Below are positions 11,462 through 28,007 of a stretch of DNA of 31,023 nucleotides, one piece after another; position 1 is the first letter of the stretch, and each line of letters starts with the position of its first letter. Both the position numbers and the translations under genes were made by a program. The notes beneath the pieces are model-generated. The model ran no database searches. It had not been told where the DNA came from and worked only from the letters and a program-made list of their open reading frames with translations. Source of the DNA: a virus. The stretch lies in IMG/VR virus record IMGVR_UViG_3300025652_009266, positions 1 to 31,023 of that record; one strand, 5' to 3'.

Positions 11462-12112
11462 ATGTCAGATAGAGTTAAAATTACGAAATTACCAACAGCT
11501 AACGGTAATATGCCGTTAACAGATAACGAAAAGGCGGATGTCATCAATGATGCTACATTTGCTTATGAAAAATTCCTGGATGCATTACGTATTGATTGGC
11601 GTAAAGACCCTAATAGTGATAATACACCTAGACGTGTTGCAAAAGCTTATGTAAATGATATTGCAGCAGGTTGCTATAATGAATTACCTAATATTACTGC
11701 ATTCCCGTCTGATGGATATGATGGGATGGTATTTCAAGGTGGTATACCAGTTAAGAGTTTATGCTCTCATCATCACCTCGCTTTTACAGGTAGGTGTCAC
11801 GTTGCTTATATTCCATCTGCAGACGGAAAGGTTATTGGATTGAGTAAGCTTAATCGGATTGTTGAGCATTACGCTCGTCGACCTCAGATCCAAGAAGGTC
11901 TTACAGTTCAAATCCATGAAGCTATTAGCAAGATTTGCGAAGGTAATAAAGGTGTTGCAGTGATGTTAACTGCAACTCATACATGCGCATGTCTCAGAGG
12001 TGTTAAGCATGATGGTTGCGAGATGAAGACATCAAAGCTTACTGGTGACTTTATGAGTGATTCATCTACTAGAAGTGAATTCTATCAGTTTGTAGCTGAT
12101 ATGAAGAGTTAA
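11462..12112 (+). CDS. folE: GTP cyclohydrolase I, FolE
   Basis: The 216-residue protein shows the FolE core: NTPRRVAKAY (54-63), SLCSHHHLAFTGRCHVAYIP (99-118) with zinc ligands C101 and H104, KVIGLSKLNRIVEHYARRPQ (123-142), QEGLTVQIHEAI and ATHTCACLRG (171-180) with the third ligand C175. It converts GTP to 7,8-dihydroneopterin triphosphate, the shared first step for folate and for 7-deazaguanine. With QueD and QueE present it most likely feeds the latter. The stop lies directly beside the stop of the convergent protease gene. Length is typical for the family. Confidence 0.93.
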   Translation: MSDRVKITKLPTANGNMPLTDNEKADVINDATFAYEKFLDALRIDWRKDPNSDNTPRRVAKAYVNDIAAGCYNELPNITAFPSDGYDGMVFQGGIPVKSLCSHHHLAFTGRCHVAYIPSADGKVIGLSKLNRIVEHYARRPQIQEGLTVQIHEAISKICEGNKGVAVMLTATHTCACLRGVKHDGCEMKTSKLTGDFMSDSSTRSEFYQFVADMKS

Positions 12113-12763: not shown

Positions 12764-13384
12764 TTAGTTATAAAATTTATATCTAGATTTACCTATAGCT
12801 CCTCTACCATACCAATTCAACTTTGGATTATTTCTTATTTCCTGTACATCAATTAAGTTTAAAGGTAAAATAAATCTTTTTTCAAAAGAACGGTCATGTT
12901 CAACATCACCTTCAGTATTAGTATAACCTGGATCAGTATATCTATTTTTTTCAGATGAATGCCATAATTGAAAGAAACCAACAGAATAACCTATATGTGG
13001 TAATCCCATCATTATACTAGTATCGTTATAATTTTCATCATATCTCCTACTACCGTAAATTGTTTCTTTATCATTTACATATTCATCTATGATATTATAA
13101 AAATTTTCAGGAAGCTTGATATCACTATCTAAATGTAAAACCCAATCAACTGGATTTATATATTCTAAACCTTCATTAATAGCTTTACATTTTGCAAATT
13201 GTGCATTTTGATAAATTTTTTCACTGTATATATATTCTATATTATTATCTTTACATATATTAATGGTTTTACTATCATCTTTATGAGTTATAATTAACCA
13301 GCTATTTAATATTTCTTTATTAGAAATTATTTTTAATAGGTAATCACTATAATCAATTGAAACTGTTACTGCATCTATTTTCAT
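12764..13384 (-). CDS. GT-A-type glycosyltransferase ending the second cassette
   Basis: The 206-residue protein starts MKIDAVTVSIDYSDYL, has AQFAKCKAINEGLEYI (61-76), DWVLHLDSDIKLP (80-92) with the DSD metal motif at 86-88, and a later DPGYTNTEGDVEHDRSF acceptor-side segment. This fits the GT2/GT-A fold, with a nucleotide-sugar donor and Mn2+ or Mg2+. It is the last gene of the long operon, its ATG overlapping the upstream stop (ATGA). Length is near the minimum for a catalytic domain and no membrane anchor is visible. No clear terminator was found in the 37 bases that follow. Confidence 0.72.
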   Translation of the reverse strand: MKIDAVTVSIDYSDYLLKIISNKEILNSWLIITHKDDSKTINICKDNNIEYIYSEKIYQNAQFAKCKAINEGLEYINPVDWVLHLDSDIKLPENFYNIIDEYVNDKETIYGSRRYDENYNDTSIMMGLPHIGYSVGFFQLWHSSEKNRYTDPGYTNTEGDVEHDRSFEKRFILPLNLIDVQEIRNNPKLNWYGRGAIGKSRYKFYN

Positions 13385-13911
13385 AAATCAAAAATATCGA
13401 CTCTATCTTTACCGTAAAAGTTTTTAAATCCTTTTTTATTCAAAATTTCTCTATACAACGGTGTTTCGTAATTATATGGAAAACAAAATATATCTGGTAT
13501 ATAACCTAATTTTTGTTTAAAATCCTGTAACATATATCGATTATCTGATATCATACATTCAACACAATCCGCTGTTTTTATATTATGGAAATGACTATGA
13601 CACCCTATATAACAATCATCTGATTCATCAATTTCCTTAATTTGAGACCATTTCATATAATTTGTATAATCACCGTTAAATGCCTTTTTATGTGCTTCAT
13701 TACATGTAATATATTCATCATTTTGTTCAATATTTTCAGGGCATACAATATCACTACTGATAAAAAAATATTTTTTTGTTTTTATATTTTTAAGTTCCTC
13801 TAAAAATACATACTGAGTATATAAACCGTCATCAAATGTAAGTGTATATTGATCTAAAGGTAAATCGAAAAACCTTTCTTCAAACTCATGAATTATTAAT
13901 ATAGGTTTCAT
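13381..13911 (-). CDS. Polysaccharide deacetylase (NodB/CE4-like)
   Basis: This 176-residue protein has the CE4 motifs: TFDDG (25-29) with catalytic and metal-binding aspartates, CHSHFH (104-109) with metal histidines H105 and H109, and IFCFPYNYE, the RxxY-like motif region. CE4 enzymes remove N- or O-acetyl groups from sugars. It is short for the family (about 200 or more), and the end after the PYN motif is brief. No signal peptide is present, so a cytoplasmic sugar precursor is a likelier substrate than cell-wall polymer. It is translationally coupled to neighbours on both sides by four-base overlaps. Confidence 0.78.
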   Translation of the reverse strand: MKPILIIHEFEERFFDLPLDQYTLTFDDGLYTQYVFLEELKNIKTKKYFFISSDIVCPENIEQNDEYITCNEAHKKAFNGDYTNYMKWSQIKEIDESDDCYIGCHSHFHNIKTADCVECMISDNRYMLQDFKQKLGYIPDIFCFPYNYETPLYREILNKKGFKNFYGKDRVDIFDL

Positions 13912-14645
13912 TTTAATTTTAACACATATTCAATCACATCACTTTTAAAGTGACCTTTAATTGTTTCAGCATTCGATATAATGCAGTGCCCGCCTATTTT
14001 ACCTTTCGGCGAGGTAAGCACTGGTCTGGTTACATTAGTTTTACCTAATAACCTATAACCTCTATTATATTCAGTATTCCATTTTGTAATAACATCATTA
14101 AACGGTAGATTATTTTCATTACAAAGTCTATCAACATCATCATGAAAAGCAATACACATACCATAGTATAGAGTTGAGAGTATCTTTGCAGTTTCTACAG
14201 TCTCAGAATTTTTTAAAATTTTATATTTAACTTTAATATTTTTAAAATGTCTTTTTGCTAAACTAAGACTGCGTTTATTTTCTGCTCCTATAAACTTTTT
14301 AAATGTCTTTAAACTTTTATATAGATTTGGATGGACTCCAATTATTGGTGAATATACAATATTAAGTGTTGATATATGTTTTGTTGTACCAGGTAATACA
14401 GTGCTATGTATTATAGTAAGTTTAGGATTATATTGTTTAATATATTCTTGAACTATATGTATAAAATTTTCACTATATGGTATACAAATATTCATTACAT
14501 CAATATTATCAACGGTCATCAAAGGTGAATCAATATCTATAATAGTTACGTTATAACGTCTTTTACTGTATAAATCGTAAATTGCCTTACCTGTTTCACC
14601 ATTACCTATTATTATAATATTTTCTTTTTTACGTTTAAAAATCAT
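13908..14645 (-). CDS. Shortened UDP-glucose/GDP-mannose dehydrogenase-like protein
   Basis: The 245-residue protein has an N-terminal Rossmann fold (IIIIGNGETGKAIYDLYS, GNGETG at 14-19), IIHSTVLPGTT (78-88), a central helix with ETVETAKILSTLYYGMCIAF (148-167) and GKIGGHCI (215-222) with C221 in the catalytic position of nucleotide-sugar dehydrogenases. These enzymes oxidise a sugar C6 alcohol to a carboxylate through a cysteine thioester. It stops about 25 residues past the cysteine, so the C-terminal substrate-binding domain of full-length members (about 400 residues or more) is missing. It may be a dehydrogenase of reduced form or act on another substrate. Confidence 0.68.
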   Translation of the reverse strand: MIFKRKKENIIIIGNGETGKAIYDLYSKRRYNVTIIDIDSPLMTVDNIDVMNICIPYSENFIHIVQEYIKQYNPKLTIIHSTVLPGTTKHISTLNIVYSPIIGVHPNLYKSLKTFKKFIGAENKRSLSLAKRHFKNIKVKYKILKNSETVETAKILSTLYYGMCIAFHDDVDRLCNENNLPFNDVITKWNTEYNRGYRLLGKTNVTRPVLTSPKGKIGGHCIISNAETIKGHFKSDVIEYVLKLK

Positions 14646-15292
14646 GATCTATTAAAAATACAAATAAATGGTTCTGCTTGTTTATAACCTGAAATACTAC
14701 CATAATATAAGTCACGGTATTTTATGTATTCACTACTTAAAGGATCTGGCGATTGCTGTAACTCTGTTATATAACCATCAATGCAGTTATATTTAATTTT
14801 TGTATAATCTTCAATATTATAAAATGTATTATAATTTATACCTTTAAAATTCCATTCACCGCTACCTGGAATTGAAAATTCATACAATGAAGTTACAGAG
14901 CAGTTAGGTCTCGGTCTACATGCAACTCTTACTGATTTTGATACTAGCTCATGGTCAATATGTATATCACCACTATAGTTTGTAAACACTGTATCAGGTT
15001 GTATTATATTTACTACAGATGTTATATAATTATTAATAGATAAATGCGAATGTTTATCTAAACTTACATCATCATATACATGTTGTATTAATTTTGAAAT
15101 ACCTAAACTCTTAATATTTTTATCTAGAGTTTGTTTACGTAGCGTTTCAATATCAGATTTACTACCTGGTCTATTCCCCCTACACAACACACATAGTGTT
15201 ATATTATTATCTTTAGATAGTTTTAATATAGTACCTCCCATACCAAACTCTGCATCATCTGGATGAGCAACAATAATTAAAATTTTTTTCAT
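14642..15292 (-). CDS. PIG-L/LmbE-family deacetylase
   Basis: The 216-residue protein starts MKKILIIVAHPDDAEFGMGG with AHPDD at 9-13, and has GDIHIDHELVS (108-118) with HIDH at 111-114. These are the zinc-binding motifs of the PIG-L superfamily, which removes acetyl groups from N-acetylglucosamine conjugates (GlcNAc-PI, mycothiol and bacillithiol precursors) and other sugars. Length is standard. With a CE4-type deacetylase two genes away, the cassette appears to encode two unrelated deacetylases, suggesting free amino groups on the final sugar. Overlaps of four bases on both sides. Confidence 0.85.
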   Translation of the reverse strand: MKKILIIVAHPDDAEFGMGGTILKLSKDNNITLCVLCRGNRPGSKSDIETLRKQTLDKNIKSLGISKLIQHVYDDVSLDKHSHLSINNYITSVVNIIQPDTVFTNYSGDIHIDHELVSKSVRVACRPRPNCSVTSLYEFSIPGSGEWNFKGINYNTFYNIEDYTKIKYNCIDGYITELQQSPDPLSSEYIKYRDLYYGSISGYKQAEPFICIFNRS

Positions 15293-16179
15293 AATAAACT
15301 ACCTATAATATCAGATATATTATATTTTGATGTATATATTGTATTCATTTTTGAGCAATCAGGTTTTCTGGTAATTATATCACCATAATTATCAGAAAAT
15401 ACTTCATTATATTTTTTGTATAAAATATTAACATCTGTTTTTGATATACCCATGCATATTTTAGCTAAGTCATTAATACATATCATATTATTTTCATTAC
15501 CAATATTAAAAATATCTCCAATATATACATCACGCGTTATTAATTCTGACATAAAATTAACAGCATCTTTAATATCACAAAATGTTCTACACTGATCACC
15601 GGTACCATATATATTAATATCGTTATTATTTTTAATAGCATTAACCATTTTGAATAAAACTCCTTTATCATCGCCAATACCTGTGACATTAAAAAATCTC
15701 ATTATTATACTATTAGTGCATAAAGATTTACATAAAAATTCTGATGTTAATTTACCAGATGCATATCCCCATCTAGATTTATCAGGGCAACCTATAGTTA
15801 AATTATCTGTTTCATTTGCTAAAGTAGTATTATGATATACTTCTGATGTACTACTGAAATATATTTTTTTATCATATTTTTTTACTAAATTAAATACATT
15901 TAAATTTATTTTTAACATATCATTTAAAAATGTATCTGATTCATTATCAATTCGATTAATACCAACAGGACTGGCTAAATGAAAAATAATATCACACTCA
16001 CTAATCTCTTTTTCTAAAGTATCACCGTTATTTGTTAAATCATATGATATATATCTATATGGTAATTTATTTTTATTAGTAGTTTTATCGATAGCGGTAA
16101 CTATATAACCTAAGCTATGTAGCTTAGTTGATAGAGCTTTACCTATAAATCCATTACCACCAGTTATTAAAATTTTCAT
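15289..16179 (-). CDS. NAD-dependent sugar epimerase/dehydratase (extended SDR)
   Basis: This 296-residue protein has MKILITGGNGFIGKAL with the GxxGxxG dinucleotide motif, DIIFHLASPVG (63-73), SSTSEVY (109-115), and the catalytic YASGK (139-143), then RFFNVTG and YGTGDQCRTFCDIKDAV. This is the extended short-chain dehydrogenase fold of UDP-glucose 4-epimerase, UDP-xylose synthase and GDP-mannose dehydratase relatives. It acts on a nucleotide-bound sugar; which one cannot be told. The intact active site indicates a working enzyme. Its start overlaps the upstream SDR-like gene by four bases. Confidence 0.85.
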   Translation of the reverse strand: MKILITGGNGFIGKALSTKLHSLGYIVTAIDKTTNKNKLPYRYISYDLTNNGDTLEKEISECDIIFHLASPVGINRIDNESDTFLNDMLKINLNVFNLVKKYDKKIYFSSTSEVYHNTTLANETDNLTIGCPDKSRWGYASGKLTSEFLCKSLCTNSIIMRFFNVTGIGDDKGVLFKMVNAIKNNNDINIYGTGDQCRTFCDIKDAVNFMSELITRDVYIGDIFNIGNENNMICINDLAKICMGISKTDVNILYKKYNEVFSDNYGDIITRKPDCSKMNTIYTSKYNISDIIGSLL

Positions 16180-16754
16180 GTATATAAATCTTTAATTTCA
16201 CGTATTGTATTAACGCGAGTATTATTATAATTATATATTATATTACGTTGATTTACAACTTTTAAAGTTTGGTTAATAAAACTATCTAATGTTATATATT
16301 CAATTTTTTTGCACATATCGTTATCGCTAACCATATTCAATCTAAGTTTTTTCATCAACCCTTTATTCCTCGTTTTACCATATACACGAGGTATTCTTAA
16401 TATTACCCAATCATCATAATTATATTGAATGTATTTTTCCATTAGTAATTTACTGTAACAGTAAATATTTTCAGGTAATTCAACACCTTTAGTACTAGCG
16501 AATATAAGCTTAGCATTCGATTGCTGAGCAAGTCTAACCATATTAATAGTACCATTTACAATTGTATCTACTACCTTTTCACTATTATGGAAATCAAAGT
16601 CATCACTCGGACCAGCAAAGTGAAATAAATTATTACAACTATTGTAGTTATATTGTAATATATTACCATAATCAATGTTAATACCTCTGGTTTGTTTTTT
16701 TAAATTACCCCCTAAAAACCCTCTTTCCGCTCCAGTAAATATGTTAGTTATCAT
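16176..16754 (-). CDS. Short SDR-type sugar epimerase-like protein
   Basis: The 192-residue protein resembles extended SDRs with TGAERGFLGGNL in the nucleotide-binding loop (7-18), LFHFAGPSD (43-51), LIFASTKGVE (83-92), a YCYSK motif (98-102) giving Y98-x3-K102, and WVILRIPRVYG. It lacks much of the early Rossmann fold and the C-terminal substrate-binding part, being about 100 residues shorter than its neighbour. It could bind NAD weakly or pair with the full-length epimerase. It may also be a decaying paralogue, although the frame is intact and coupled at both ends. Confidence 0.68.
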   Translation of the reverse strand: MITNIFTGAERGFLGGNLKKQTRGINIDYGNILQYNYNSCNNLFHFAGPSDDFDFHNSEKVVDTIVNGTINMVRLAQQSNAKLIFASTKGVELPENIYCYSKLLMEKYIQYNYDDWVILRIPRVYGKTRNKGLMKKLRLNMVSDNDMCKKIEYITLDSFINQTLKVVNQRNIIYNYNNTRVNTIREIKDLYT

Positions 16755-17800
16755 TTTATATACTTTGGGTTAGTTTTATGAAAAGCAAACATCGTATCAC
16801 ATTTACACTTATCAAGAACACATGTCATACAACTAGTTAAAAAAGTTTTATTGAGTTTATGAACTGGTATAATTTCTTCAGAACAAATATTTTGTATTGT
16901 ACCATCCATATTAATGACATACATTAATGACTTACAACTCCAACCTTTAAATTTATTAAGTTCATATCTATTAATATCACCTTCTGTTAAAATATATTGG
17001 TTATCATTATTATCGATGTATTTAATATTAGTTGTTATTTCACCTACATGTTCTTTTAGATATTTTGTTGCATTTTTAATACCTACACCTTTACCGTAAT
17101 TTGATTTTATTTTTTTTGTAGGTGTAATATAATCATGAAAATACGTCCAAAAATCATCTTGATATTTCGGAGACCAACCCCCAATAACACCACTTTCTAC
17201 GCTTTGCAAAAAATTGAGATTAACGAATACATCGTTATCTTTAAATCTATCGATAAGATCTTTCGTCTGTTTCCAATATTTTTTATTATCAGGTAGATTA
17301 ATATTCGGGAATATACTTAAATTTTCTAAATTTTTATTTAAGTCAATAACTTTTTGAATATACTTTTCACCACAGTATTCAGGGTGATAAGAAGCTTCTA
17401 TTGTAAGTTTATTATTTTCTTTAACATCAAACTTTTTATAAAAATCATAAGGCTTTGCTAAATTAGTAATTAAATCAACCTGTATACAATATTTATGTTT
17501 ACATAATTCTGAAATAATATCTTCGATATCTGGGTGCAACGTCGGTTCACCACCGAGTATTTCAACAGAATATGGCGTCTTAACCATTAGTTTTATCGAT
17601 TTAATAGTATTCTTCCATGCTTTAATAAGATGTGGTTTAGTCTTAAATGTATTAAGATTAAAATTCATTGCACTGCAATAACTACACCTATATTGGCATA
17701 TATCTATAAGATTCCATGAAAATGTAATTAAATCATATTTTTCATCACCAGCTTCTTTAATATTATTAATATTAATGTTTTGATTATTTATTTTTTTCAT
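16751..17800 (-). CDS. Radical SAM protein 1, SPASM/twitch-like C-terminus
   Basis: The 349-residue protein has CQYRCSYC (C35, C39, C42) binding the [4Fe-4S] cluster, EILGGEPTLHPDI (80-92) for SAM, ITNLAKPYDFYKKF and SYHPEY in the barrel, and a C-terminal domain starting FKGWSC with NICSEEI, CMTC and CKC, a pattern of at least six cysteines for auxiliary Fe-S binding. The substrate is unknown. Its N-terminal IKEAGDEKYDLITFSWNL and barrel motifs recur in the next upstream gene (protein 2), so the two look like tandem duplicates. The start is coupled to the upstream stop by ATGA. Confidence 0.85.
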   Translation of the reverse strand: MKKINNQNININNIKEAGDEKYDLITFSWNLIDICQYRCSYCSAMNFNLNTFKTKPHLIKAWKNTIKSIKLMVKTPYSVEILGGEPTLHPDIEDIISELCKHKYCIQVDLITNLAKPYDFYKKFDVKENNKLTIEASYHPEYCGEKYIQKVIDLNKNLENLSIFPNINLPDNKKYWKQTKDLIDRFKDNDVFVNLNFLQSVESGVIGGWSPKYQDDFWTYFHDYITPTKKIKSNYGKGVGIKNATKYLKEHVGEITTNIKYIDNNDNQYILTEGDINRYELNKFKGWSCKSLMYVINMDGTIQNICSEEIIPVHKLNKTFLTSCMTCVLDKCKCDTMFAFHKTNPKYIK

Positions 17801-18822
17801 TTTATATTATCAATATATTTAGGAAATAAGAATTTTGTCGAACAATCACACCGTTCTAGCGGACATTTAACGCATTTTGTTAGATTTTTTTTAGTTAACT
17901 CTAACAATGATATTCGTTCACCTGTACAACCATTTTCTATGATACAATCCATATTAACGTTATATATCATAGGTTTGCAATTCCAACCTTTAAATTTTGC
18001 ATAGTCATTTACCACTATTTCTTTTTCAGTATAATAATATTTACCTGCTTCATCTTGGTAAGGTATATTTTCATGACCAGTTGTTAAATTACTACTAATA
18101 TCATCATCACATTGTTTACTAGATTTTAACGGGCTAGCTTTTTCATTTAGTCTACATGGTGTGTTTAGTTTATCATTTTTCAATATATTATCAAATTTTT
18201 TAAAAAACTCATCTGTATAATTAGGCTTATAACCTTTATTAATACCATCTTCTACCTCAAACAACAAATTAACATCGATATGGATATTATTTTTTTTGAG
18301 TGTATTAATTGTTAACATAGTTTTACCCCACAATTGTGGTTTATCATGTAAATTTATTGAAGGGTTTACATCCATACCTAAATTATGTAATTTTATTATT
18401 TTTTCTGTAAATGAAGTATTATGATATTCGGGGTGATAGGATGTTATTAATCTAAGTTTATTTTTAGATTCCTCTGAATAAAACTTTTTATAAAAATTGA
18501 AAGGTTTAGCTAAATTAGTAATCATATCAATACTAGTGCAGTTTTTATTGTTAGATAACTCTTTTATAATTTCATGTATATCTGGGTGTATTGTAGGTTC
18601 ACCTCCTAATAATTCGATCGTAAATGATATACCAAGACGCTTGGTATGTAACATTTTTATAAAAGGTTTCCATACTTTTAAATTTTTCTTATCAAATGTA
18701 TTAAGATTATAATTTACAGAACTACAGTATGTACAATTGTATTGACATTTATCTATCAATTGCCATGAGAAAAAAATACTATTATAATCATCGTGACCAG
18801 CTTTAATAAATTTTTTTACCAT
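17797..18822 (-). CDS. Radical SAM protein 2, SPASM/twitch-like C-terminus
   Basis: This 341-residue protein closely parallels protein 1: IKAGHDDYNSIFFSWQLID, CQYNCTYC (C26, C30, C33), ELLGGEPTIHPDI, ITNLAKPFNFYKKF, SYHPEY and an FKGWNC domain ending in CVKCPLERCDCSTKF. Differences are scattered through the length, as expected for an old duplication. The rSAM core would cleave SAM to a 5'-deoxyadenosyl radical; the C-terminal cysteines would hold one or two auxiliary clusters. It is overlapped by seven bases by the end of the transketolase C-half gene, so the group is translated as a unit. Confidence 0.85.
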   Translation of the reverse strand: MVKKFIKAGHDDYNSIFFSWQLIDKCQYNCTYCSSVNYNLNTFDKKNLKVWKPFIKMLHTKRLGISFTIELLGGEPTIHPDIHEIIKELSNNKNCTSIDMITNLAKPFNFYKKFYSEESKNKLRLITSYHPEYHNTSFTEKIIKLHNLGMDVNPSINLHDKPQLWGKTMLTINTLKKNNIHIDVNLLFEVEDGINKGYKPNYTDEFFKKFDNILKNDKLNTPCRLNEKASPLKSSKQCDDDISSNLTTGHENIPYQDEAGKYYYTEKEIVVNDYAKFKGWNCKPMIYNVNMDCIIENGCTGERISLLELTKKNLTKCVKCPLERCDCSTKFLFPKYIDNIK

Positions 18823-19292
18823 TTACAGTTATCCCAACCTAATCTTATAAAATTTGTATCTGTATCTCTTATACTTTGTGTTAAAGTATTAAGAAATTCT
18901 GAACGAGTTGTCGGTTCATGACAATTAACATTGAGAGCATTCATTAGTTTATAATCGTCATCAGGTAGATGCCCAATACCACATTTACTATAACACCCAT
19001 TTGCACCTGCATTGACGAATGTAACATTTTTACCGAAATTTACCACACTAAATTTTAATTGCTCATAACCTCTTTGATATACAAACCCAGCAACACCATA
19101 TATAATAACTTTTTTACCTTGACTAGCCAAACCACCAGCAACATTAACCATATTTGTTTCTTGTATACCAAAATTAAGACACCTTTCTGGATATTTTAAT
19201 TTAAACTTTTTAAACCCCCACATATCTGCATGTAAAAAATATAAATTTGGGTTGTTATATTTTGATAAAAATGTATCTAATGTATTTCTCAT
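18816..19292 (-). CDS. Split transketolase-like protein, pyrimidine-binding half
   Basis: The 158-residue protein (from the ATG of MRNTLDTF) covers the transketolase Pyr domain: LYFLHADMWGF, LNFGIQETNMVNVAGGLASQGK (39-60, with E45 in the cofactor-activating position), VIIYGVAGFVYQRGYEQLK and VTFVNAGANGCYSKCGIGHLPDDDYKLM. It ends before any transketolase C-terminal domain. The other half lies one gene upstream at 20172-20870. A longer frame opens at 19346 but would overlap the previous gene by 53 bases, whereas this ATG starts one base after the upstream stop, so I chose it. Confidence 0.8.
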   Translation of the reverse strand: MRNTLDTFLSKYNNPNLYFLHADMWGFKKFKLKYPERCLNFGIQETNMVNVAGGLASQGKKVIIYGVAGFVYQRGYEQLKFSVVNFGKNVTFVNAGANGCYSKCGIGHLPDDDYKLMNALNVNCHEPTTRSEFLNTLTQSIRDTDTNFIRLGWDNCKW

Positions 19293-19293
19293 T

Positions 19294-20175
19294 TTAATTA
19301 TAAACGTCTTTAAGATAAATATTAAGTTCACTTGAAAAATCCTCAAATGTCATTTCACGACCAGTAATTTTAAAGTTATTTACACCTTGTTTAATAAGTT
19401 GCTTAATTTGAGATGTTTTTAAATCCATTCCATAAGAATCTCCTAATTTTTTAATAACCTTTTCTTGACCAATATTCGGATCAAACCCTTTCGGTTTTTT
19501 ATATGTAGATCTTTCAGATAACCAACACTCTTCTACTTCATACATCTCTTTTTGACCTGCATCAACCCATGGTTTTTTATAAAGTCTATTTTGTTTAGCA
19601 ATTTCTTCAAAATGTATACCGTAATACGGGCAATTATAAATACATGTATCATTAAGCATAATTTCATACTTATTTTGGTCTAAATCTATAAATCTTTTAT
19701 CAAATATATGTTCACACCTAGGTACAATATAATCATATAGTTTTTCAAGTCGTTTATATAAATTAAAATCATCATCTGTCATTGGAACGTTTATCTTACC
19801 AAAACTTGTAATTGATCTCGTATGTTTATATAAAGGATATTTTTCTTTGATGTAATTGAGTAACGTTTCATTTGCAGTAATAATAACATTACCTTTTTTA
19901 TGGAACTTTTTAAGTAATTCGTTACCCGTTTTATCTGTAAGATCAATAACAGGGTTTGTAAATGTAAGTGCAATTGAGATATTATTCCGATAGTAAAAAT
20001 TAATAACTTTATCATCGTAACATATATCTCTATTAATACGACCACCGTTCCATGAGCAATTATTAATACCATCATAAACTGTAATATCAAAATTTTTAAT
20101 AATATTTTTATTATTAAAGAAATATAATCTTAGTTCTTTACTTTTGCTAAATGCTCCTGCTATATTAAATCTCAT
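19294..20175 (-). CDS. U32-peptidase-like protein with four conserved-type cysteines
   Basis: The 293-residue protein looks like a TIM-barrel of the U32 group (COG0826): early NIAGAF and YDGINNCSWNGGRIN, IIITANETLLNYI (98-109 region), DYIVPRCEHIFDKRFIDLD (148-166), MLNDTCIYNCPYYGIHFE (173-190) and a near C-terminal GVNNFKITGREM (264-275), typical of U32 GxxxFKIxGR. C154, C178, C182 and C217 could bind an Fe-S cluster, as in UbiU/UbiV-type U32 proteins that take part in oxygen-independent hydroxylation. The U32 link is by pattern only. It sits between the two transketolase halves and is coupled to both. Confidence 0.5.
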   Translation of the reverse strand: MRFNIAGAFSKSKELRLYFFNNKNIIKNFDITVYDGINNCSWNGGRINRDICYDDKVINFYYRNNISIALTFTNPVIDLTDKTGNELLKKFHKKGNVIITANETLLNYIKEKYPLYKHTRSITSFGKINVPMTDDDFNLYKRLEKLYDYIVPRCEHIFDKRFIDLDQNKYEIMLNDTCIYNCPYYGIHFEEIAKQNRLYKKPWVDAGQKEMYEVEECWLSERSTYKKPKGFDPNIGQEKVIKKLGDSYGMDLKTSQIKQLIKQGVNNFKITGREMTFEDFSSELNIYLKDVYN

Positions 20176-20870
20176 AACTGTTCAATTGGTTTATAATGCC
20201 ATTGGACCGGGTCGTTTTGCATATAATTAACCCCGTATCCTTTAACTGTTACAAATATAATAACACTTGGCTTGTTTTTACCTTGTCTTTTCTGCATTAC
20301 AAACGCATTTTTTATATCATTTATATCATGACCATTAACAGTAATAACATTCCAACCATTATTTTTCATAAAACTTATAACTGCAGTTGTATCAAGAACA
20401 TCTGACGTCTTACCAGTAACCTGATAATTATTATAGTCAACAGTGACAAATATATTATTAACACTATTATGACCTATATATTGAATTGCTTCAAGGGTAC
20501 TACCCATTTGCAATGTTGCATCGGTTATATTTACCCAAACTTTATGTGTAGGGTTAGCAATTGCAATACCAGCCCCAACCCCGAGAGCATTTCCCATCGT
20601 TTCCTCACTATAATCAACAAAATCAATTTCATTATGTTTTACACCTACAGAAAGATTTTCAATATTTTCAAGGTAACCTAATTTTTTCCAGATTAAATAA
20701 TATGCTTGAGAACCAAAAGGCTTTCCTAGTACAATCTTATCACGGTATGGTACAACAATTTTATTTTGAAAAAGAGCTTCAATGTACGTTAACATTGAAA
20801 GTGCTGATGGTACATGTGTTAGTTTTTTATCAAATGAATATTTAACTAGCTCTGTAACTATATTATTCAT
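20172..20870 (-). CDS. Split transketolase-like protein, TPP-binding half
   Basis: The protein (232 residues from MNNIVTEL) matches the transketolase N-terminal domain: SMLTYIEALFQ, IVLGKPFGSQAYYLIW, EETMGNALGVGAGIAIA (89-105), NITDATLQMGSTLEAIQY (114-131) and FVTVDYNNYQVTGKT (141-155). The diphosphate motif GDG reads TDA with the metal-binding D117 kept, and the asparagine pair follows. It would bind thiamine diphosphate with the Pyr half to move a two-carbon ketol group. A longer frame starts at 20960, but its extra 30 residues are AT-biased and would overlap the previous gene; a possible promoter sits in that stretch. Confidence 0.82.
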   Translation of the reverse strand: MNNIVTELVKYSFDKKLTHVPSALSMLTYIEALFQNKIVVPYRDKIVLGKPFGSQAYYLIWKKLGYLENIENLSVGVKHNEIDFVDYSEETMGNALGVGAGIAIANPTHKVWVNITDATLQMGSTLEAIQYIGHNSVNNIFVTVDYNNYQVTGKTSDVLDTTAVISFMKNNGWNVITVNGHDINDIKNAFVMQKRQGKNKPSVIIFVTVKGYGVNYMQNDPVQWHYKPIEQL

Positions 20871-20881
20871 AATAATATATA

Positions 20882-20909
20882 TATATATCATTAAAAACAG
20901 TTTTATCAA
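20882..20909 (-). promoter_or_regulatory. Possible internal sigma70-like promoter
   Basis: Minus strand TTGATA (20904-20909), 16-base spacer, TATATA (20882-20887), eleven bases before the ATG at 20870. The 61-base gap here is the largest within the cassette. The -10 lies in an AT dinucleotide run, so the match may be fortuitous. Confidence 0.35.
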
Positions 20910-20931
20910 CTTGACATTATGTTTCAGCTTT

Positions 20932-21882
20932 TTATTTATATTTTTCAATATAAAACTCACCTTTACAGCAATTCCACTTACATTTTGTATAATTATTAGC
21001 TTTAATTTTAAATAAAATAGTATTTTTTAATATATTACCTGCAGGTTTTGTATCTAATGAATTTGAAGCACACATATAAAAATCACCATTACCGTTGAGT
21101 ATAATGTACTTTTTACCCACAGCACACTTCCAACCTTGAAACGAAATACCATCTTGATATAGATCATTAGTATCGTGAATTTTTTTTATACCATCTTCGT
21201 GTGTTATTTCATAGTTTTCTTCATACACCCCTTTACAATATTCATTTATAAATAACTGATACATATTTGTTGTATTTTCAAAATCAATGAATCCATGTAT
21301 TAATTCAATTTTATTTTTATATGGTTCTTGTAGAAGATCTTTACTATTTTTAATAATATTGTTAACATGGTTAATATCATGTTCAAGCATAATATCTATT
21401 TTACCTAACATTCCATTATTATATATTAAATCTATTTTTTCTTTTAAGTTTTTAAAATCTTTTACGAATTTATGGTGGTATGATACATTAACTTCAAACT
21501 TTTGATCTTTATATCGATCTATTAAAGTTTGTATATATTTTTTACCAACTGATAGGTTAGTTTGAAATTCAACTATAATATTTGCATCAAGAGTAAATAC
21601 ATAATCGATAATATCTCTACATTTTGGATGAGTTGTTGCCTCTCCTCCGTGAAAATAAATACGAAAATTATTATGATTTATATTTTCTATTGCTTTTGTA
21701 ATTGATGCTTTAATATCATCAAAATTATAATGGTTACCGTATTTCCAATGACAATAACTACAATCATAATTACAATAATCTGTTATACGAAATGTTATTT
21801 CATAAAATTCCTCATTTCCAAAGTCATAAATACCTTGTATACCTGTACTCTCTAAAATTTTATATTTTGTTGGATGTATCAT
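20932..21882 (-). CDS. Radical SAM protein 3, SPASM/twitch-like C-terminus
   Basis: This 316-residue protein has ITFRITDYCNYDCSYCHWKYG (cluster cysteines C37, C41, C44; shown in two overlapping parts), YFHGGEATTHPKC (77-89, with GGEA replacing GGEP), NVSYHHKF, and a C-terminal FQGWKCAVGKKYIILNGNG followed by FYMCAS, AGNILKN and CKWNCCKGEFY, the most SPASM-like ending of the group. Enzymes of this type modify peptides or sugars. It directly precedes the transketolase half and ends with a T4-late-type TATAAATA across its stop. The upstream kinase-like gene ends 18 bases before its ATG. Confidence 0.85.
   Translation of the reverse strand: MIHPTKYKILESTGIQGIYDFGNEEFYEITFRITDYCNYDCSYCHWKYGNHYNFDDIKASITKAIENINHNNFRIYFHGGEATTHPKCRDIIDYVFTLDANIIVEFQTNLSVGKKYIQTLIDRYKDQKFEVNVSYHHKFVKDFKNLKEKIDLIYNNGMLGKIDIMLEHDINHVNNIIKNSKDLLQEPYKNKIELIHGFIDFENTTNMYQLFINEYCKGVYEENYEITHEDGIKKIHDTNDLYQDGISFQGWKCAVGKKYIILNGNGDFYMCASNSLDTKPAGNILKNTILFKIKANNYTKCKWNCCKGEFYIEKYK
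20933..20940 (-). promoter_or_regulatory. TATAAATA T4-late-type box inside the cassette
   Basis: Minus-strand TATAAATA spans the end of the rSAM 3 coding sequence, about 62 bases before the transketolase start at 20870. Unlike the other boxes it would give a leader of some 55 bases, so it is the weaker candidate. Confidence 0.35.
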
Positions 21883-21900
21883 ATTAAAATCTATTAATTA

Positions 21901-22482
21901 TTACACTCGATATATTTGATCATCGAATGATATTTGTTGCATTTCATCATCAGTTATACCATATGCATTATAATCTATAAAAAAATATTGATTACTATAT
22001 TTATTATACATTAAATTATCTACTGATAATTCTGTAATAACATTTGTATAGAACTTTTTATTTTCAGGTGATTTTGTATATTCTTCAAGATATTTTAAAA
22101 TTGAATTATCTTTAATTAAATGTTTATCATCGTATAATTGCTTTGCCTGTAATATAAATGGATGATTTACATCTAATTCTTTTATTTGTTTATTCAAGAT
22201 TAAATTAGATAATTTACATATTTTTGTAATAAAATTATATTCATTACAAAATGTAAGATGTAATGCTGAATTAAATGGAAATTCAAAATATAAATAATCA
22301 CGAGTTATAGAATGATATTTTAATAGAAATTTAGCTTTTGTATGATCATAATAATTTTCAAAATATGCTTTTTGAAAATCATATAGACGTGGTTGTATTT
22401 TACATTTAAGAAATAGTTTCTTTCTATTAACAAAAATGATATTTTCTCTTTTTTCGTGTAAATTTACGCTTAAATTTAACAT
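21901..22482 (-). CDS. Unknown protein with possible kinase/phosphotransferase-like C-terminus
   Basis: The 193-residue protein has no clear family. The part NIIFVNRKKLFLKCKI (14-29) could be a small kinase N-lobe strand pair with a lysine, YLYFEFPFNSAL (63-74) a hinge, and LSVDNLMYNKYSNQYFFIDYNAYG (152-175, in pieces) resembles the D-x-x-x-x-N ... (F/V)IDY of aminoglycoside/choline-kinase-like phosphotransferases. A usual HGD catalytic loop is not visible, so a pseudo-kinase or a wrong guess are both possible. It sits in the rSAM operon between proteins 4 and 3 and overlaps the upstream gene by seven bases. Confidence 0.4.
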   Translation of the reverse strand: MLNLSVNLHEKRENIIFVNRKKLFLKCKIQPRLYDFQKAYFENYYDHTKAKFLLKYHSITRDYLYFEFPFNSALHLTFCNEYNFITKICKLSNLILNKQIKELDVNHPFILQAKQLYDDKHLIKDNSILKYLEEYTKSPENKKFYTNVITELSVDNLMYNKYSNQYFFIDYNAYGITDDEMQQISFDDQIYRV

Positions 22483-23495
22483 ATTTTTCTTTCTGTACTA
22501 TTTTCTTTACTAAGTTTAGATAATTTAGACACTTTATTACCAATATTTATTTTTTTACTTTCTATGTTAAAGAAACACTTTTTAAACTTGCATATAGTTG
22601 GTTTTAAATTACTAAAATATTTAGTATAATTATTTTTATTATTAATATTAAATACCGGTGGTGTATCTGAAAAGAGATGACTTTCACAAAAGAAAGAACT
22701 ACCATCCCAGTCGACTACAATTCTATCTAAAGGTGCATTGCATCTATAACCAGTAAATGTATTATCATTTTCAAGCCAAAAACTAAATCTAGATCTTTTT
22801 TGATTATCCACCGGTATTGTATCGTCAAAAAAGAAACTATGTTGTTTCAATTCGTTTATATCTTCATTTTTTTCAATATATGATACTTCGGCTATATCAC
22901 TCTCTATTGGTTGTGAAACCTTACTATCAATTAAAGGGCATACTTCGCAATGATCAGTACCGATAATTTTTGTTGCAAATTTAAAATCTTTCATAACATC
23001 TTTTTTACTGTTATACATAAACGATAGCATGTTAAGCATACCATATTTTTTTAATATTATTGCTTTTTTAATAAACGTAGATATATTTGTTTGTGTATTA
23101 TGGTAGCTACCACACACTTTCATTGTTTGTTTATTGTTTGAATATCTCTTACAGAATTTTTCCCACCAATCATTTTTAAGAGCAAGATTAGATTGTATAT
23201 CAAATGTAAATTTAACATTTTTATTAACCCCTTCAAATAAACCATCTATATAATCAAAGAGGTATGGGTATATTGTCGGTTCACCTCCGTATATATACAT
23301 ATATATAGGCTTATTTAAATGTTCATATGCTGTATTTATAAGCTCGCATATATGTTTTACATTATGTATAACAAATGGTACTTTATTATAATGGAGATCA
23401 GTGCAGTAGTAGCAATTATAATTACATTTTGATGTTAATCTAACTTCTATAGTAAATATATCCTGCTCTACCCCGACTGTCTTATAATTATGCAT
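22476..23495 (-). CDS. Radical SAM protein 4, SPASM/twitch-like C-terminus
   Basis: The 339-residue protein begins with EVRLTSKCNYNCYYC (C24, C28, C31), has MYIYGGEPTIYPYL (66-79), GSYHNTQTN in the barrel, and a C-terminal FTGYRCNAPLDRIVVDWDG, SFFCESHLF and ICKFKKCFF section with the auxiliary-cluster cysteines. The insert between the barrel and this domain has a second cysteine pair (DHCEVCPL). A serine/lysine-rich tail (KKINIGNKVSKLSKLSKEN) follows, unique in the group. It overlaps both neighbours by seven or eight bases. The substrate is unknown. Confidence 0.85.
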   Translation of the reverse strand: MHNYKTVGVEQDIFTIEVRLTSKCNYNCYYCTDLHYNKVPFVIHNVKHICELINTAYEHLNKPIYMYIYGGEPTIYPYLFDYIDGLFEGVNKNVKFTFDIQSNLALKNDWWEKFCKRYSNNKQTMKVCGSYHNTQTNISTFIKKAIILKKYGMLNMLSFMYNSKKDVMKDFKFATKIIGTDHCEVCPLIDSKVSQPIESDIAEVSYIEKNEDINELKQHSFFFDDTIPVDNQKRSRFSFWLENDNTFTGYRCNAPLDRIVVDWDGSSFFCESHLFSDTPPVFNINNKNNYTKYFSNLKPTICKFKKCFFNIESKKINIGNKVSKLSKLSKENSTERKIC

Positions 23496-24453
23496 TTTGT
23501 TTCTTTTCTTTAAATATCTTTAATAACCCATCACAATTACAGCTTGTATGAGGGCAAGATACAGCACAAACTCTACCTATATCTCTAAAAAAGAACGGAT
23601 TTGTTAATAAATCTTTTCTTTCTTCAAAACATACTCGATGAACTACACCGGTATATGATATTTCATAATTATTATTCCAGCAATCCCAATTTTTAAAATT
23701 AGTAAATTCATTTTCAAAAATATTATAATCATTATACATTTTTTTATTACCTAATTTATCTTCAAATGTAAAATAATCTGGGTAATCTTTAAATCTTTCA
23801 AATTCTTTATAAAATCTTTCACTATAATTTTCTAATTTATGTACATCCCCATCTGCATACAAAAAATGTGGATGTATATTGATTTTATCACCGTATTTTT
23901 CTAATTTATCAACAAAATCATGCGTTTTCTGCCAAAGTTTTTCATTATAATGAAGCATTACATTTATTTTTACTTTAAACCCTCTGCTAACAGCAGTATC
24001 AATATTTTTTAAAAGTATTTCAAAACCTTTCTTATATTTAAATTCATATTCCGGGTGAAAGCTAAAAAGAAAATATAATTTATCATCATATTGATGATTT
24101 TTAAAAATACTATTTTTATTTGAACCGTTTGTAGTTATATATAACCTACCATCTGTATGTTTCTTTACTGCTTCTAAACATTTTTCTATCAACTCAGGGT
24201 AATGTGGATGGATTGTCGGTTCACCTCCTAACAACCCAAGAAATACAGGTAATTTTGCTCGAGCAATATTTTTTATAACATGTTGTTGTTTCTGCCAGTC
24301 ATCTATTTTACCCCATTCATCACCATACTCTTTCATAGCATAACAATAGGTACATTTAAAATTACACTGTGTACTAACATCCCAATGTACATATAGTCTC
24401 TGTATTTTATGCTTTATATCATATTGTTTTATGAAGTCTGGTTTATTGTTCAT
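23488..24453 (-). CDS. Radical SAM protein 5, SPASM/twitch-like C-terminus
   Basis: The 321-residue protein has HWDVSTQCNFKCTYCYAM (C30, C34, C37), FLGLLGGEPTIHPHY (71-85), LYFLFSFHPEYEF, and a C-terminal FKNWDCWNNNYEIS, VHRVCFEER, then CAVSCPHTSCNCDGLL, a dense cysteine set. The SFHPEY stretch is the counterpart of SYHPEY in proteins 1 and 2, so it belongs to the same expanded family. The next gene downstream is protein 4 and the upstream one a GT2 glycosyltransferase coupled by ATGA, which places glycosyl transfer within the rSAM gene order. Confidence 0.85.
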   Translation of the reverse strand: MNNKPDFIKQYDIKHKIQRLYVHWDVSTQCNFKCTYCYAMKEYGDEWGKIDDWQKQQHVIKNIARAKLPVFLGLLGGEPTIHPHYPELIEKCLEAVKKHTDGRLYITTNGSNKNSIFKNHQYDDKLYFLFSFHPEYEFKYKKGFEILLKNIDTAVSRGFKVKINVMLHYNEKLWQKTHDFVDKLEKYGDKINIHPHFLYADGDVHKLENYSERFYKEFERFKDYPDYFTFEDKLGNKKMYNDYNIFENEFTNFKNWDCWNNNYEISYTGVVHRVCFEERKDLLTNPFFFRDIGRVCAVSCPHTSCNCDGLLKIFKEKKQNA

Positions 24454-25106
24454 TTTTTAAATCTTAAATCAGTGTTATATTTATCAAAACTAATATTATC
24501 TAGACCATCTGTAGTTTGAATCCAAACAGGCTTGCAAATATAAAGAATGCTTTTGAGTTGTAAAGAGCTGAATATTTTATAATCATTATTAATGTCATCA
24601 TCTCTAGGCCAATACTTAATACCATTTCTCTTAAAAACTATTTGACTCAATTGAAAGTCAGTATGGTCATATTTTTTTAAAAAATCAGAAAGAATATTGA
24701 CGTTTTTATAATTTCTAAATTTTTTAAAAAACCTTTCATAGTATACTTTTATGTTTTGTTTATTAGTTATAATATCTTTTGATATATAATTTAAAAAATT
24801 AACATCATAATTATAATCTAAAAATTTAAAAAAATTAGATTTTATATAATCATCATCCTCAAGAAAGAAAACAAAATCTCCACAACTTTTATTAAATAAA
24901 AATTTATATGTATCTGTTAGTTTCTTATGTTTTTTATAAAAATAAGAAATATTAACATTATTTTTATATACTTCAGTTATATCATTACTATCATTATTAA
25001 CAATAATTTCAATATCATATTGAGGTAAATTATCTAATATACTTTTAATACATCTTTTAAATAAAAGTGGTCTGTTGTGAGTTAAAATTAAAATTGATAA
25101 CTTCAT
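24450..25106 (-). CDS. GT2 glycosyltransferase within the rSAM operon
   Basis: This 218-residue protein starts MKLSILILTHNRPLLFKRC, has IEIIVNNDSND (32-42) for the nucleotide and FVFFLEDDDYIKS (78-90) with EDDD as metal site, then WPRDDDINNDY, probably the acceptor-side acidic motif. It is a GT-A/GT2 sugar transferase of short form. There is no membrane segment. It lies between two rSAM genes with four-base overlaps on both sides. A weak AAAGGT precedes the start, one of few Shine-Dalgarno-like sequences here. Confidence 0.78.
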   Translation of the reverse strand: MKLSILILTHNRPLLFKRCIKSILDNLPQYDIEIIVNNDSNDITEVYKNNVNISYFYKKHKKLTDTYKFLFNKSCGDFVFFLEDDDYIKSNFFKFLDYNYDVNFLNYISKDIITNKQNIKVYYERFFKKFRNYKNVNILSDFLKKYDHTDFQLSQIVFKRNGIKYWPRDDDINNDYKIFSSLQLKSILYICKPVWIQTTDGLDNISFDKYNTDLRFKK

Positions 25107-26128
25107 AATTTTACCTTTTTAAAATCTAACCCGTCAAAGCAAGCATTAAGTAAACAAATCTCACACTTACTTAAATACGTTTTAAAATCTAACTCATGTA
25201 AACTTAACGGCTTTATATTCTTATAATTGTAATCATTACATCGGTATATTTTTAAAGTGTAGTCAATAACAATATTTTTTTTACCACTTTCACATTTCAT
25301 ATATTTGAAATTCTTATGAATATTATTACCTTTAACGTCAGAGTAATTAATTACTTTATCACCATCTATAATAAAATCCCAACCCTTTTCAAAATACATT
25401 CTTAATTCAGGGTAGTATTTCATCCAATATCTATACTCCAAACTTTTACCGTTATCCTTGCCTATTAAATAATCATCATCTTTAAATTTTTCATATCCTT
25501 TATAATTGTGTAATGATAAATTTTCTATTTCAGTAAATTTCATAATTAATTTTTTAGGGTACTTTTTAGCAATAAAATGAAGCTCTTTAAGCATTTGTTC
25601 TTTTTTAGGTATTTCGGTACTAAAAAAACAATAACCAAGACTGCTATATTTTTTGCATATATCCATTTTTTTAACATATTCTTCAACTGTTTGTTTACCT
25701 ATATGATAGCTGTTACATATATTAACAGTATGGTTTGTGGTTTTTATTCTATTAATTTCTTTAAGAAATTTTTCTAATCTACTAGTAGATAAACTTAAAT
25801 TTGTATGGGTTTGTAAAAATAATTCTCTTTCAGGGAAAAGTTCAACAATTCTATAATTTAAATATTCCCAATATTTACTTAAAGTCGGTTCACCACCGTA
25901 AAAATAAAAAAATATTTTTTTCTTACTTTTTGGTATTTCAGCAAGTTTATCTAAAACATTATCACACTGTTCTTTAGTCCATGTTTTAGTCTTATTATCG
26001 TATTCATCACAAAACCAACACCGGTGATTACATCTAAAACAAGGTTTTAAAGTAATTTTCAAATCATAATCAGGCCATTCTTCAGTTTTAACAATTTCAA
26101 AACTTTTTATTATTTCTAAATTATTCAT
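25103..26128 (-). CDS. Radical SAM protein 6, SPASM/twitch-like C-terminus
   Basis: From the ATG of MNNLEIIKSF the protein has 341 residues. It shows LKPCFRCNHRCWFCDEY, in which C33, C37 and C40 form CxxxCxxC and C30 is an extra cysteine, FYFYGGEPTLSKYW (74-87), NSYHIGKQT, and a C-terminal YMKCESGKKNIVIDYT with YRCND and CEICLLNACFDG. The longer frame from 26152 would overlap the previous gene by 28 bases, while this ATG makes a standard ATGA overlap with its stop, so I prefer it. Substrate unknown; same family as proteins 1-5 and 7 by motif order. Confidence 0.83.
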   Translation of the reverse strand: MNNLEIIKSFEIVKTEEWPDYDLKITLKPCFRCNHRCWFCDEYDNKTKTWTKEQCDNVLDKLAEIPKSKKKIFFYFYGGEPTLSKYWEYLNYRIVELFPERELFLQTHTNLSLSTSRLEKFLKEINRIKTTNHTVNICNSYHIGKQTVEEYVKKMDICKKYSSLGYCFFSTEIPKKEQMLKELHFIAKKYPKKLIMKFTEIENLSLHNYKGYEKFKDDDYLIGKDNGKSLEYRYWMKYYPELRMYFEKGWDFIIDGDKVINYSDVKGNNIHKNFKYMKCESGKKNIVIDYTLKIYRCNDYNYKNIKPLSLHELDFKTYLSKCEICLLNACFDGLDFKKVKL

Positions 26129-27045
26129 ACCTTTTGTTTGTAATAATTCCACTGTATATCACAACCGCAATTTGATAAAGGGCATTCCACACACTCTGCC
26201 TTTCCAGTTATATTCAATGGCTTTTTAGTACAATCATTAAATATTGCACCAAAGTGAGTTATTTTGTATCTTAAAGGTGTACATTTCCAACCATAAAATT
26301 TTGTCAATTTATTATTGTAAATAGAATGTTTATTTAAATTATATGTTTTATTATCATTTGTTTTAAACATATATCTATTGTTATCTTTTTTAGCAAAATC
26401 TTTCATTTCACTTAGAAAATCTTTATCATAATTTACATTATATTCATAACAATCGGTTAAAAAACTAACTGTAAATTCAATATCTTTTTGTATTAAACTT
26501 TTAATTAATTCTTTATTTTTTTCATAATATTTTTTATTATCATGAATCATTATTATAGGTATAATTTTTATATATTCAAACTCGTGTATTTTTATAATTT
26601 TTTCTAATATACTTTCATCATAATATTCCATATGAACTGACGGGCATATTAGAAGTTTACTACAATCTTTATTATTAAATGCTTCATAATAACTTATATT
26701 TTTTTTAAGATTTGTTATTAAACTAATTTCTATACAATTTTCATATGAATTTAAAATTTGAATTATTTCATATAAATTATTATGTAAAGTTGGTTCGCCA
26801 CCTAATAAATCTACTTCATATTTACCTAATGTCTTTATTTTTAACCTTTTTAAAACATTTTTATATGATTGATTTTGTTGATTATTCTTAAAAAAAGAAG
26901 ATTTTGGTCTGGTTTCATCTGTACCAAAGCCTTCATTGCAATATGTACAAGCTTGGTTACATACATCTATTAAATGCCATGTAAAGGTTTTTATATTATA
27001 ATCTTTATTACCCGCTTCAATTATATCTTTATTACAATGCTTCAT
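26125..27045 (-). CDS. Radical SAM protein 7, SPASM/twitch-like C-terminus
   Basis: The 306-residue protein begins with IIEAGNKDYNIKTFTWHLID, very like proteins 1 and 2, then CNQACTYC (C29, C33, C36), DLLGGEPTLHNNL (79-91), PSVHMEYYDE and a C-terminal FYGWKCTPLRYKI, NDCTKK and CVECPLSNCGCD. It is the third member of the EAGxxxY subgroup although it lies about 7 kb from the other two. The barrel SVHMEY corresponds to SYHPEY. Coupled to both neighbours by four-base overlaps. Confidence 0.85.
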   Translation of the reverse strand: MKHCNKDIIEAGNKDYNIKTFTWHLIDVCNQACTYCNEGFGTDETRPKSSFFKNNQQNQSYKNVLKRLKIKTLGKYEVDLLGGEPTLHNNLYEIIQILNSYENCIEISLITNLKKNISYYEAFNNKDCSKLLICPSVHMEYYDESILEKIIKIHEFEYIKIIPIIMIHDNKKYYEKNKELIKSLIQKDIEFTVSFLTDCYEYNVNYDKDFLSEMKDFAKKDNNRYMFKTNDNKTYNLNKHSIYNNKLTKFYGWKCTPLRYKITHFGAIFNDCTKKPLNITGKAECVECPLSNCGCDIQWNYYKQKV

Positions 27046-28007
27046 ATTCTATCTTTAATAATTTTAATTATATCATCATTTTTATTTAAAAAAATACTTT
27101 TAAAGTTATATTCTATATCATATTTACGATATTTTAACCCGGTATCAATATTGATATAATTATCATCAACATCATGGTAAATTATTTGCTTATTATAAAA
27201 TTTACATTCAGCTATAAAACGTGGGCTACAATCAAAAGAATTTATTTTTATATTACCTTCTAAATGAGTAGGTGTATATATATACGCGTCAAACTTTTTA
27301 AAAATGTCATCAACAGGTAATTTAGGGAATGTAACATTTTTTAATAAACTAAATAGTTTTTTATATTTTTCATTTTCATTTGTAAGAATAATATAATTTT
27401 TATACTTATATTGCATTATAACATCTAATAGATAATCATCACAAATCTTCCTACAGTTAGATGTTATATATAATAATGCAGTTTCAGTTTTAATACTTTC
27501 ACTCTTTTTAAAAATATCAAACTTTATCTTCTTTTTATAGTTAACAGATATTTTAGTATCTTCATCATTATATACTCTATTATCCTGCAATAGAGTTATA
27601 TTTTTATAAGGTAAATTATAGTGGTAATCTTTATTAGAACATCTAAATGAAAAAATATTTTTAAAAGAAAGAGCAACCCCGTATCTTAACATTGTACGGG
27701 TAAACCCACCATCTACAAAAAGTATATTTTTACCTATTACATATTTAGGTCGATATTCGAAAAAGGTATTTTTTTTAATATCATCTATAACACTTTTATC
27801 TAAATCATACTTTGTATGTAATGCTTTTTCAATTATATCCCATGACATATCTTCACATATTAATATACCAATCTTCATATGATCTTTTAATAGAACAAAA
27901 TATTCTATAATTTCATATAAATGACCAGAAATACCGTGATTGGTATCACCACTCCAAGTCATTGTTATATATAAATCGTAATTTTTATCTAATTTAAGAT
28001 ATTTCAT
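27042..28007 (-). CDS. Putative GT-B-like glycosyltransferase, family uncertain
   Basis: The 321-residue protein has two apparent halves: an N-terminal one with SGDTNHGISGHLYEIIEY (19-36) and strand KIGILICED, and a C-terminal one with ALLYITSNCRKICDDYLLD, YIILTNENEKYKKLF, FDAYIYTPTHLEGN and FDCSPRFIAECKFYNKQIIY (258-277). Two Rossmann-like halves and a late acidic/S-P-R-F-I-A-E segment suggest a GT-B transferase binding a nucleotide sugar through the C-terminal half, but I cannot name the family. It lies between rSAM proteins 8 and 7 with four-base overlaps, so it is expressed with them. Confidence 0.5.
   Translation of the reverse strand: MKYLKLDKNYDLYITMTWSGDTNHGISGHLYEIIEYFVLLKDHMKIGILICEDMSWDIIEKALHTKYDLDKSVIDDIKKNTFFEYRPKYVIGKNILFVDGGFTRTMLRYGVALSFKNIFSFRCSNKDYHYNLPYKNITLLQDNRVYNDEDTKISVNYKKKIKFDIFKKSESIKTETALLYITSNCRKICDDYLLDVIMQYKYKNYIILTNENEKYKKLFSLLKNVTFPKLPVDDIFKKFDAYIYTPTHLEGNIKINSFDCSPRFIAECKFYNKQIIYHDVDDNYINIDTGLKYRKYDIEYNFKSIFLNKNDDIIKIIKDRI

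Follow-up and report, generated by a model that had tools for sequence, protein, structure and literature searches.

The window analysed here, the whole stretch of 31,023 nucleotides (nt) of IMG/VR virus record IMGVR_UViG_3300025652_009266, is a 31 kb phage genome fragment in which a transketolase-like enzyme is encoded by two separate genes, one for the thiamine pyrophosphate (TPP)-binding half (PP) and one for the Pyr half, with a U32-like gene between them. The analysis points to a phage split transketolase-like enzyme without the C-terminal transketolase domain, and this enzyme is rather likely to carry out two-carbon (C2) transfer in a sugar pathway for a glycan of the virion or host surface. 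The three genes are listed below, with protein lengths in amino acids (aa).

20172..20870, minus strand: PP, the half of the split enzyme that binds TPP, 232 aa (Pfam Transketolase_N 2.7e-16; structure match to 6yak_AAA)
19294..20175, minus strand: U32-like TIM-barrel protein, 293 aa, accessory gene (fold match to 5d88; cysteines)
18816..19292, minus strand: Pyr half, 158 aa, ATG start, with E45 (catalytic Glu) and H108 (Pfam Transket_pyr 3.4e-7, above cut-off)

The split transketolase-like enzyme

The positions and order of these genes had been given in a preliminary description of the window and were found correct by sequence check. The coupling it claimed was seen as an overlap of 4 nt between the PP and U32-like genes, a 1-nt gap between the U32-like and Pyr genes and an overlap of 7 nt between the Pyr gene and the next radical-SAM gene. 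All three genes lie inside a long minus-strand run (12764-29032) in which genes overlap or follow closely on one another. The PP gene starts with ATG; if a GTG start is used instead, it would reach 20960.

The split transketolase proposed in that description was borne out, as the Pfam domains fall on separate genes and the TPP site is largely intact. The structure of PP predicted as a single chain (predicted local distance difference test, pLDDT, 93.6) gave 6yak_AAA as its top PDB match (Z 27.9, root mean square deviation (rmsd) 2.1, 229 residues aligned), and the best PDB match of Pyr was the C-chain of 6yaj/6yak (profile E 8.5e-13). The curated NCBIfam transketolase models were not reached, the best score being 98.3 bits where 488 bits are required. 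Two-subunit TPP decarboxylases (ComDE-like) were not the closest relatives, the match to sulfopyruvate decarboxylase beta being 1.1e-5 (under cut-off) against 3.2e-28 for transketolase.

To count residues, 29 phage sequences each of PP and Pyr were aligned to E. coli TktA. The equivalents of TktA H26, D155 and N185 in PP and of E411 in Pyr (E45) were each present in 29/29 sequences, D155 and N185 being the Mg ligands and E411 the catalytic Glu, while of the donor-binding histidines H473 was kept in 27/29 and H100 in 26/29. The GDG motif was earlier said to read TDA with its aspartate kept; the stretch is ITDATLQMG with D117, and the family motif is [ST]-D-[AGS] with the aspartate in 29/29. The C-terminal domain, which had been called missing, was indeed absent in both halves and in 12/12 related phage records. 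Its Pfam family PF02780 was found in 0/12 of these records and in 14/14 control genomes, and an encoding of the domain elsewhere in the phage genome was rejected on this count.

The split-gene transketolase of Carboxydothermus hydrogenoformans (ChTK, PDB 6yak/6yaj) is the closest structure and sequence match for both phage halves; it likewise carries PP and Pyr on separate chains, with the linker absent. Single chains of ChTK are inactive and both are needed for TPP binding (PMC7661550), which makes a heteromer the natural inference for the phage PP and Pyr. Together the two proteins would form a minimal TPP-dependent transketolase-like enzyme, specific to phages and without the C-domain, probably a PP2-Pyr2 heterotetramer in which TPP and Mg2+ are bound where PP meets Pyr.

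Scans of viral contigs gave 27 related phage contigs after removal of evident duplicates, the window being counted apart, and PP and Pyr were both present in all 27. The sample for trees and counts was picked by similarity to the window, and as virus records are incomplete and several are fragments, absences are weak evidence. The nonsynonymous and synonymous rates (dN/dS) against the related contig L013 were 0.26/1.36 (~0.19) for PP, 0.065/0.84 (~0.08) for Pyr and 0.034/0.37 (~0.09) for the U32-like gene. PP, Pyr and U32 are under purifying selection, and dN well under dS together with the recurrence in 27 contigs indicates that the genes are not chance. The split transketolase-like enzyme is genuine and probably catalytically active.

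Within the searched collections, phages alone carried the PP subfamily, bar one close cellular match (L090). The cassette genes of this contig, assigned to a Neomarinimicrobiota metagenome-assembled genome (MAG), are almost the same as those of phage contig L041; probably phage DNA was binned with the MAG. A cellular home of the subfamily was rejected, the candidates being L090 and two distant matches at 26-27% identity. L009 and L010 were also rejected as phage relatives and read as bacterial-type, with an ordinary two-gene transketolase and a distant U32-like gene.

The U32-like gene and the order of the halves

The U32-like gene had been placed in the same operon-like cluster as the halves, and this holds, its product being modelled as a TIM barrel closest to the U32 protein Mk0906 though under the Pfam cut-off (Peptidase_U32, E 0.092, 12.4 bits against a gathering score of 22.4). 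The single-chain model, at pLDDT 86 but poor in the loop 219-240, matched 5d88 (Mk0906) as its top fold with Foldseek 4.1e-4, Z 14.9 and rmsd 3.7 over 215 aligned residues, the next-best matches being unrelated barrels at Z 11.3. A PDB profile search with the protein returned unrelated matches only (E 0.15 or worse), and hhalign against the E. coli U32 members gave a weak match (52% over 43 columns). It is the fold comparison that supports the U32 label, sequence profiles alone being insufficient to secure the family.

The likeness to the U32 family (Mk0906; UbiU/UbiV, TrhP, RlhA) covers the TIM barrel, an FKI-x-GR motif and cysteines resembling UbiV C39 and the CX3C part, whereas the Pfam score and the weak profile match to the E. 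coli members set the window protein apart. C40, C178, C182 and H188 were present in 27/27 U32-like sequences and a fourth cysteine, C217, in most, being missing in one paralogous group. Two U32-like paralogs per cassette were seen in L043, L053, L063, L080, L083 and L086. In UbiV, the [4Fe-4S] cluster is held by C39, C180, C193 and C197, and UbiU/UbiV, which bind such clusters, participate in O2-independent hydroxylation (PMC6747719). By analogy between these ligands and the conserved cysteines, an Fe-S cluster is plausible in the U32-like protein, which would be an accessory Fe-S TIM-barrel enzyme and perhaps an O2-independent hydroxylase.

The preliminary description went further and proposed that PP, the U32-like protein and Pyr form one dedicated complex, in which addition of a C2 unit is followed by its modification. 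The coupling in the window, the same order in L012/L013 (near-duplicates) and L014, the U32-like genes near the halves in 20/27 cassettes and the ability of U32 proteins to form stable heteromers such as UbiU-UbiV (PMC6747719) are in its favour. The survey of gene order called for in that description spoke otherwise. The U32-like gene occupies this middle position in the window, L013 and L014 alone, whereas the halves are directly adjacent in 10/27 contigs and a Trp-halogenase-family gene separates them in 12/27. One of these intervening genes (L031:10606-11862) matched its Pfam family at 5.7e-60, and the remaining 11 cases were assigned by N-termini common with it; relatives of this gene were also seen in cyanophages, pelagiphages and Campylobacter phages. 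Elsewhere the intervening content was SDR16 (L086), three small open reading frames (ORFs; L017) or a stretch of about 1 kb in which no ORF is listed (L028). The U32-like gene was undetected in 7 records with both halves, several of them fragments, and in the Campylobacter phage CP220 no U32-like match was found at E 1e-3.

In the tree, the window, L013 and L014 cluster together (support only 0.575 for all three) and sit within a group of phages whose halves are adjacent and in which no U32 was detected. The gene orders and this nesting are most simply explained by a single U32 insertion between once-adjacent halves; on this simplest reading the U32-like gene is a local insertion and no fixed third partner. 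A fixed PP-U32-Pyr unit was rejected from gene order and tree, and the dedicated three-protein complex is considered improbable. A C2 addition followed by modification of the sugar is plausible. The statement that the halves of split transketolases are usually adjacent stands with a caveat, as those of M. jannaschii are reported to be spread across the genome (PMC7661550).

The conserved cassette and its proposed product

The halves recur with a set of sugar and radical-SAM genes. Across the 27 contigs, rSAM23 and GT24 were each found in 25, SDR15, SDR16, PIG-L and rSAM28 each in 23, h27 and the polysaccharide deacetylase each in 22 and rSAM20 in 17. Radical-SAM matches numbered 3-12 per record in 12/12 related records. 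The presence of sugar SDRs, deacetylases and a GT2 glycosyltransferase beside the transketolase-like enzyme argues for a sugar pathway. The pathway set kept by T4-like phages would comprise h27, rSAM28, GT2, rSAM23, PP, Pyr, the two SDRs, PIG-L and the polysaccharide deacetylase. The enzyme would most likely transfer a C2 group (ketol or acyl) to an acceptor that is a sugar or nucleotide sugar, and the pathway probably yields an unusual glycan carried by structures of the virion or host surface. The genes of the run other than the three already given are as follows.

12764..13384, minus strand: glycosyltransferase-like protein (Pfam Glyco_tranf_2_4 0.0047, under cut-off)
13381..13911, minus strand: polysaccharide deacetylase, core (Pfam Polysacc_deac_1 5e-9)
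13908..14645, minus strand: weak UDP-glucose dehydrogenase-like protein (PHROG 9148, E 1.8e-8; Pfam under cut-off)
14642..15292, minus strand: PIG-L family de-N-acetylase, core (Pfam PIG-L 2.7e-19)
15289..16179, minus strand: SDR15, NAD-dependent sugar-nucleotide epimerase/dehydratase, core (Pfam Epimerase 7.5e-37)
16176..16754, minus strand: SDR16, short nucleotide-sugar epimerase/dehydratase-like, core (Pfam RmlD/Epimerase)
16751..17800, minus strand: radical-SAM gene (Pfam Radical_SAM 5.4e-8)
17797..18822, minus strand: radical-SAM gene (PHROG 13987, E 5.9e-25; Pfam Radical_SAM 29.4 bits, slightly below cut-off)
20932..21882, minus strand: rSAM20, radical-SAM gene (Pfam 2.1e-7)
21901..22482, minus strand: protein without a match in Pfam and PHROG searches
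22476..23495, minus strand: rSAM22, radical-SAM gene (Pfam 0.00061, under cut-off)
23488..24453, minus strand: rSAM23, radical-SAM gene (Pfam 4.6e-14)
24450..25106, minus strand: GT24, GT2 glycosyltransferase (Pfam Glycos_transf_2 1.4e-9)
25103..26152, minus strand: rSAM25, radical-SAM gene (Pfam 1.1e-11)
26125..27045, minus strand: rSAM26, radical-SAM gene (Pfam 1.3e-7)
27042..28007, minus strand: h27, conserved core protein, ~320 aa (recurrence in cassettes)
28004..29032, minus strand: rSAM28, radical-SAM gene (Pfam 1.3e-19)

The nearest NCBIfam model of SDR15 is UDP-4-keto-pentose/UDP-xylose synthase, under its cut-off, and the PDB profile matches of SDR16 are heptose epimerase and UDP-glucuronate decarboxylase. 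The h27 alignment contains 25 invariant columns across 17 sequences. A second glycan-type group, with Capsule_synth-like, hexapeptide acetyltransferase-like and GT2 genes, was seen at window positions 856-4313.

Several findings weigh against a glycan pathway fed by C2 transfer. The donor-binding H66 of TktA is replaced in 29/29 phage sequences (F in 28, Y in 1) and E160 is M in 29/29, so the donor and the chemistry may differ from those of transketolase. No sugar or acceptor could be named from the cassette genes, all NCBIfam sugar models being under their cut-offs, and h27 gave no Pfam or PDB relative. Baseplate or tail-fibre genes flank the cassette in the three phages where the neighbourhood could be read (G001, G003 and G007), no such flanks being made out in G006 and the window, and this is no proof of virion glycosylation. 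The tail-gene setting nevertheless suggests a virion or host-surface target. Given the altered donor site seen in the alignment, the donor may not be the customary ketose phosphate but a compound such as pyruvate or hydroxypyruvate. The phage enzyme further departs from ChTK in that its Pyr chain is without the C-terminal domain, GDG has become [ST]D[AGS] and the genes stand in a phage glycan-type cassette.

The same replacements bear on the view that the enzyme is an ordinary transketolase feeding nucleotide synthesis in infection, in the manner of the cyanophage transaldolase talC. Phages are known to carry sugar-phosphate metabolic genes (PMC2984593), and the transketolase domains and most catalytic residues are present. 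The lost H66 and E160, the absent linker and C-domain and the glycan-type setting without pentose-phosphate gene neighbours speak against such a role, which is regarded as unlikely.

The cassette could instead yield a small molecule or modified peptide, the TPP enzyme making an acyloin or acyl precursor. Many radical-SAM genes are present, rSAM28 weakly resembles peptide-maturase models such as AlbA (NCBIfam), and Trp-halogenase-like and 2-oxoglutarate (2OG)-oxygenase genes occur in related cassettes. However, the GT2, two sugar SDRs, PIG-L and polysaccharide deacetylase rank among the most conserved members, and no precursor-peptide gene was recognised, without a systematic search for one; a product of this kind is given little credence.

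Another possibility is DNA hypermodification, in which the cassette and the preQ0 genes of the window build a group on the bases of the phage itself. The window carries queE, queD-like and folE genes beside PhoH (8125-12112), and Campylobacter phage CC_R7 is reported to encode a 7-carboxy-7-deazaguanine synthase (PMC12398825). Yet folE and PF00303 (thymidylate synthase/hydroxymethylase family) were each found in 2/12 related records against 12/12 for the cassette, some being fragments in which absence is weak. As these genes fail to track the cassette, the chance of hypermodification was lowered and is rated slight.

Campylobacter phages and significance

A T4-type gp23 capsid gene was present in 8/12 related records, and the four without it include the three shortest. 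The same C-domain-less PP/Pyr subfamily occurs in Campylobacter phages together with relatives of h27, rSAM28, SDR15, SDR16, PIG-L and the deacetylase; in Firehammervirus CP220, CPt10, CP21 and others some halves are annotated 'putative transketolase'. These phages differ from the window in that the halves, no more than about 31-36% identical, are far apart, the set is scattered and the U32-like gene is undetected. In CP220, PP, Pyr, h27, rSAM28 and SDR16 are spread over about 10-165 kb, the halves lying ~94 kb apart, and the SDR15, PIG-L and deacetylase relatives stand side by side. The best conserved protein between the window and CP220 is rSAM28 (49% identity), whose relatives among phage records were found in 15 Campylobacter-phage and 2 other records. 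Identity is about 31-37% for PP and 25% for PIG-L, and at such low values orthology with CP220 rests on the gene set as a whole. A plus-strand stretch of 23 residues in L007 and CP220 (~70499-70567) shares ~74-91% identity with the N-terminal end of the cassette GT2; no further glycosyltransferase match was found around it, and it is possibly a remnant.

CP220 and CPt10 share with the window many radical-SAM genes in a T4-like phage. Their radical-SAM clusters, of 11 genes in CP220 and 12 in CPt10, were described as an interchangeable, probably non-essential module (PMC2853527), and in that account the transketolase halves and sugar genes were left unconnected with it. The literature searched gave nothing linking these phage genes to a pathway, the search being thin in subscription journals.

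As a tentative proposal, the C-domain-less split transketolase and several radical-SAM enzymes may belong to a phage-specific pathway that makes a sugar, perhaps branched, on tail fibres or the infected host surface. Such a pathway would be old and common to environmental T4-like and Campylobacter phages, its genes scattered in some yet kept together as a set. What emerges is a transketolase-like enzyme of minimal, two-chain build whose donor site is altered, and the unexplained radical-SAM genes of Campylobacter phages, called highly unusual in 2010 (PMC2853527), would gain a candidate pathway whose partner genes are named and which is testable in an isolated phage.

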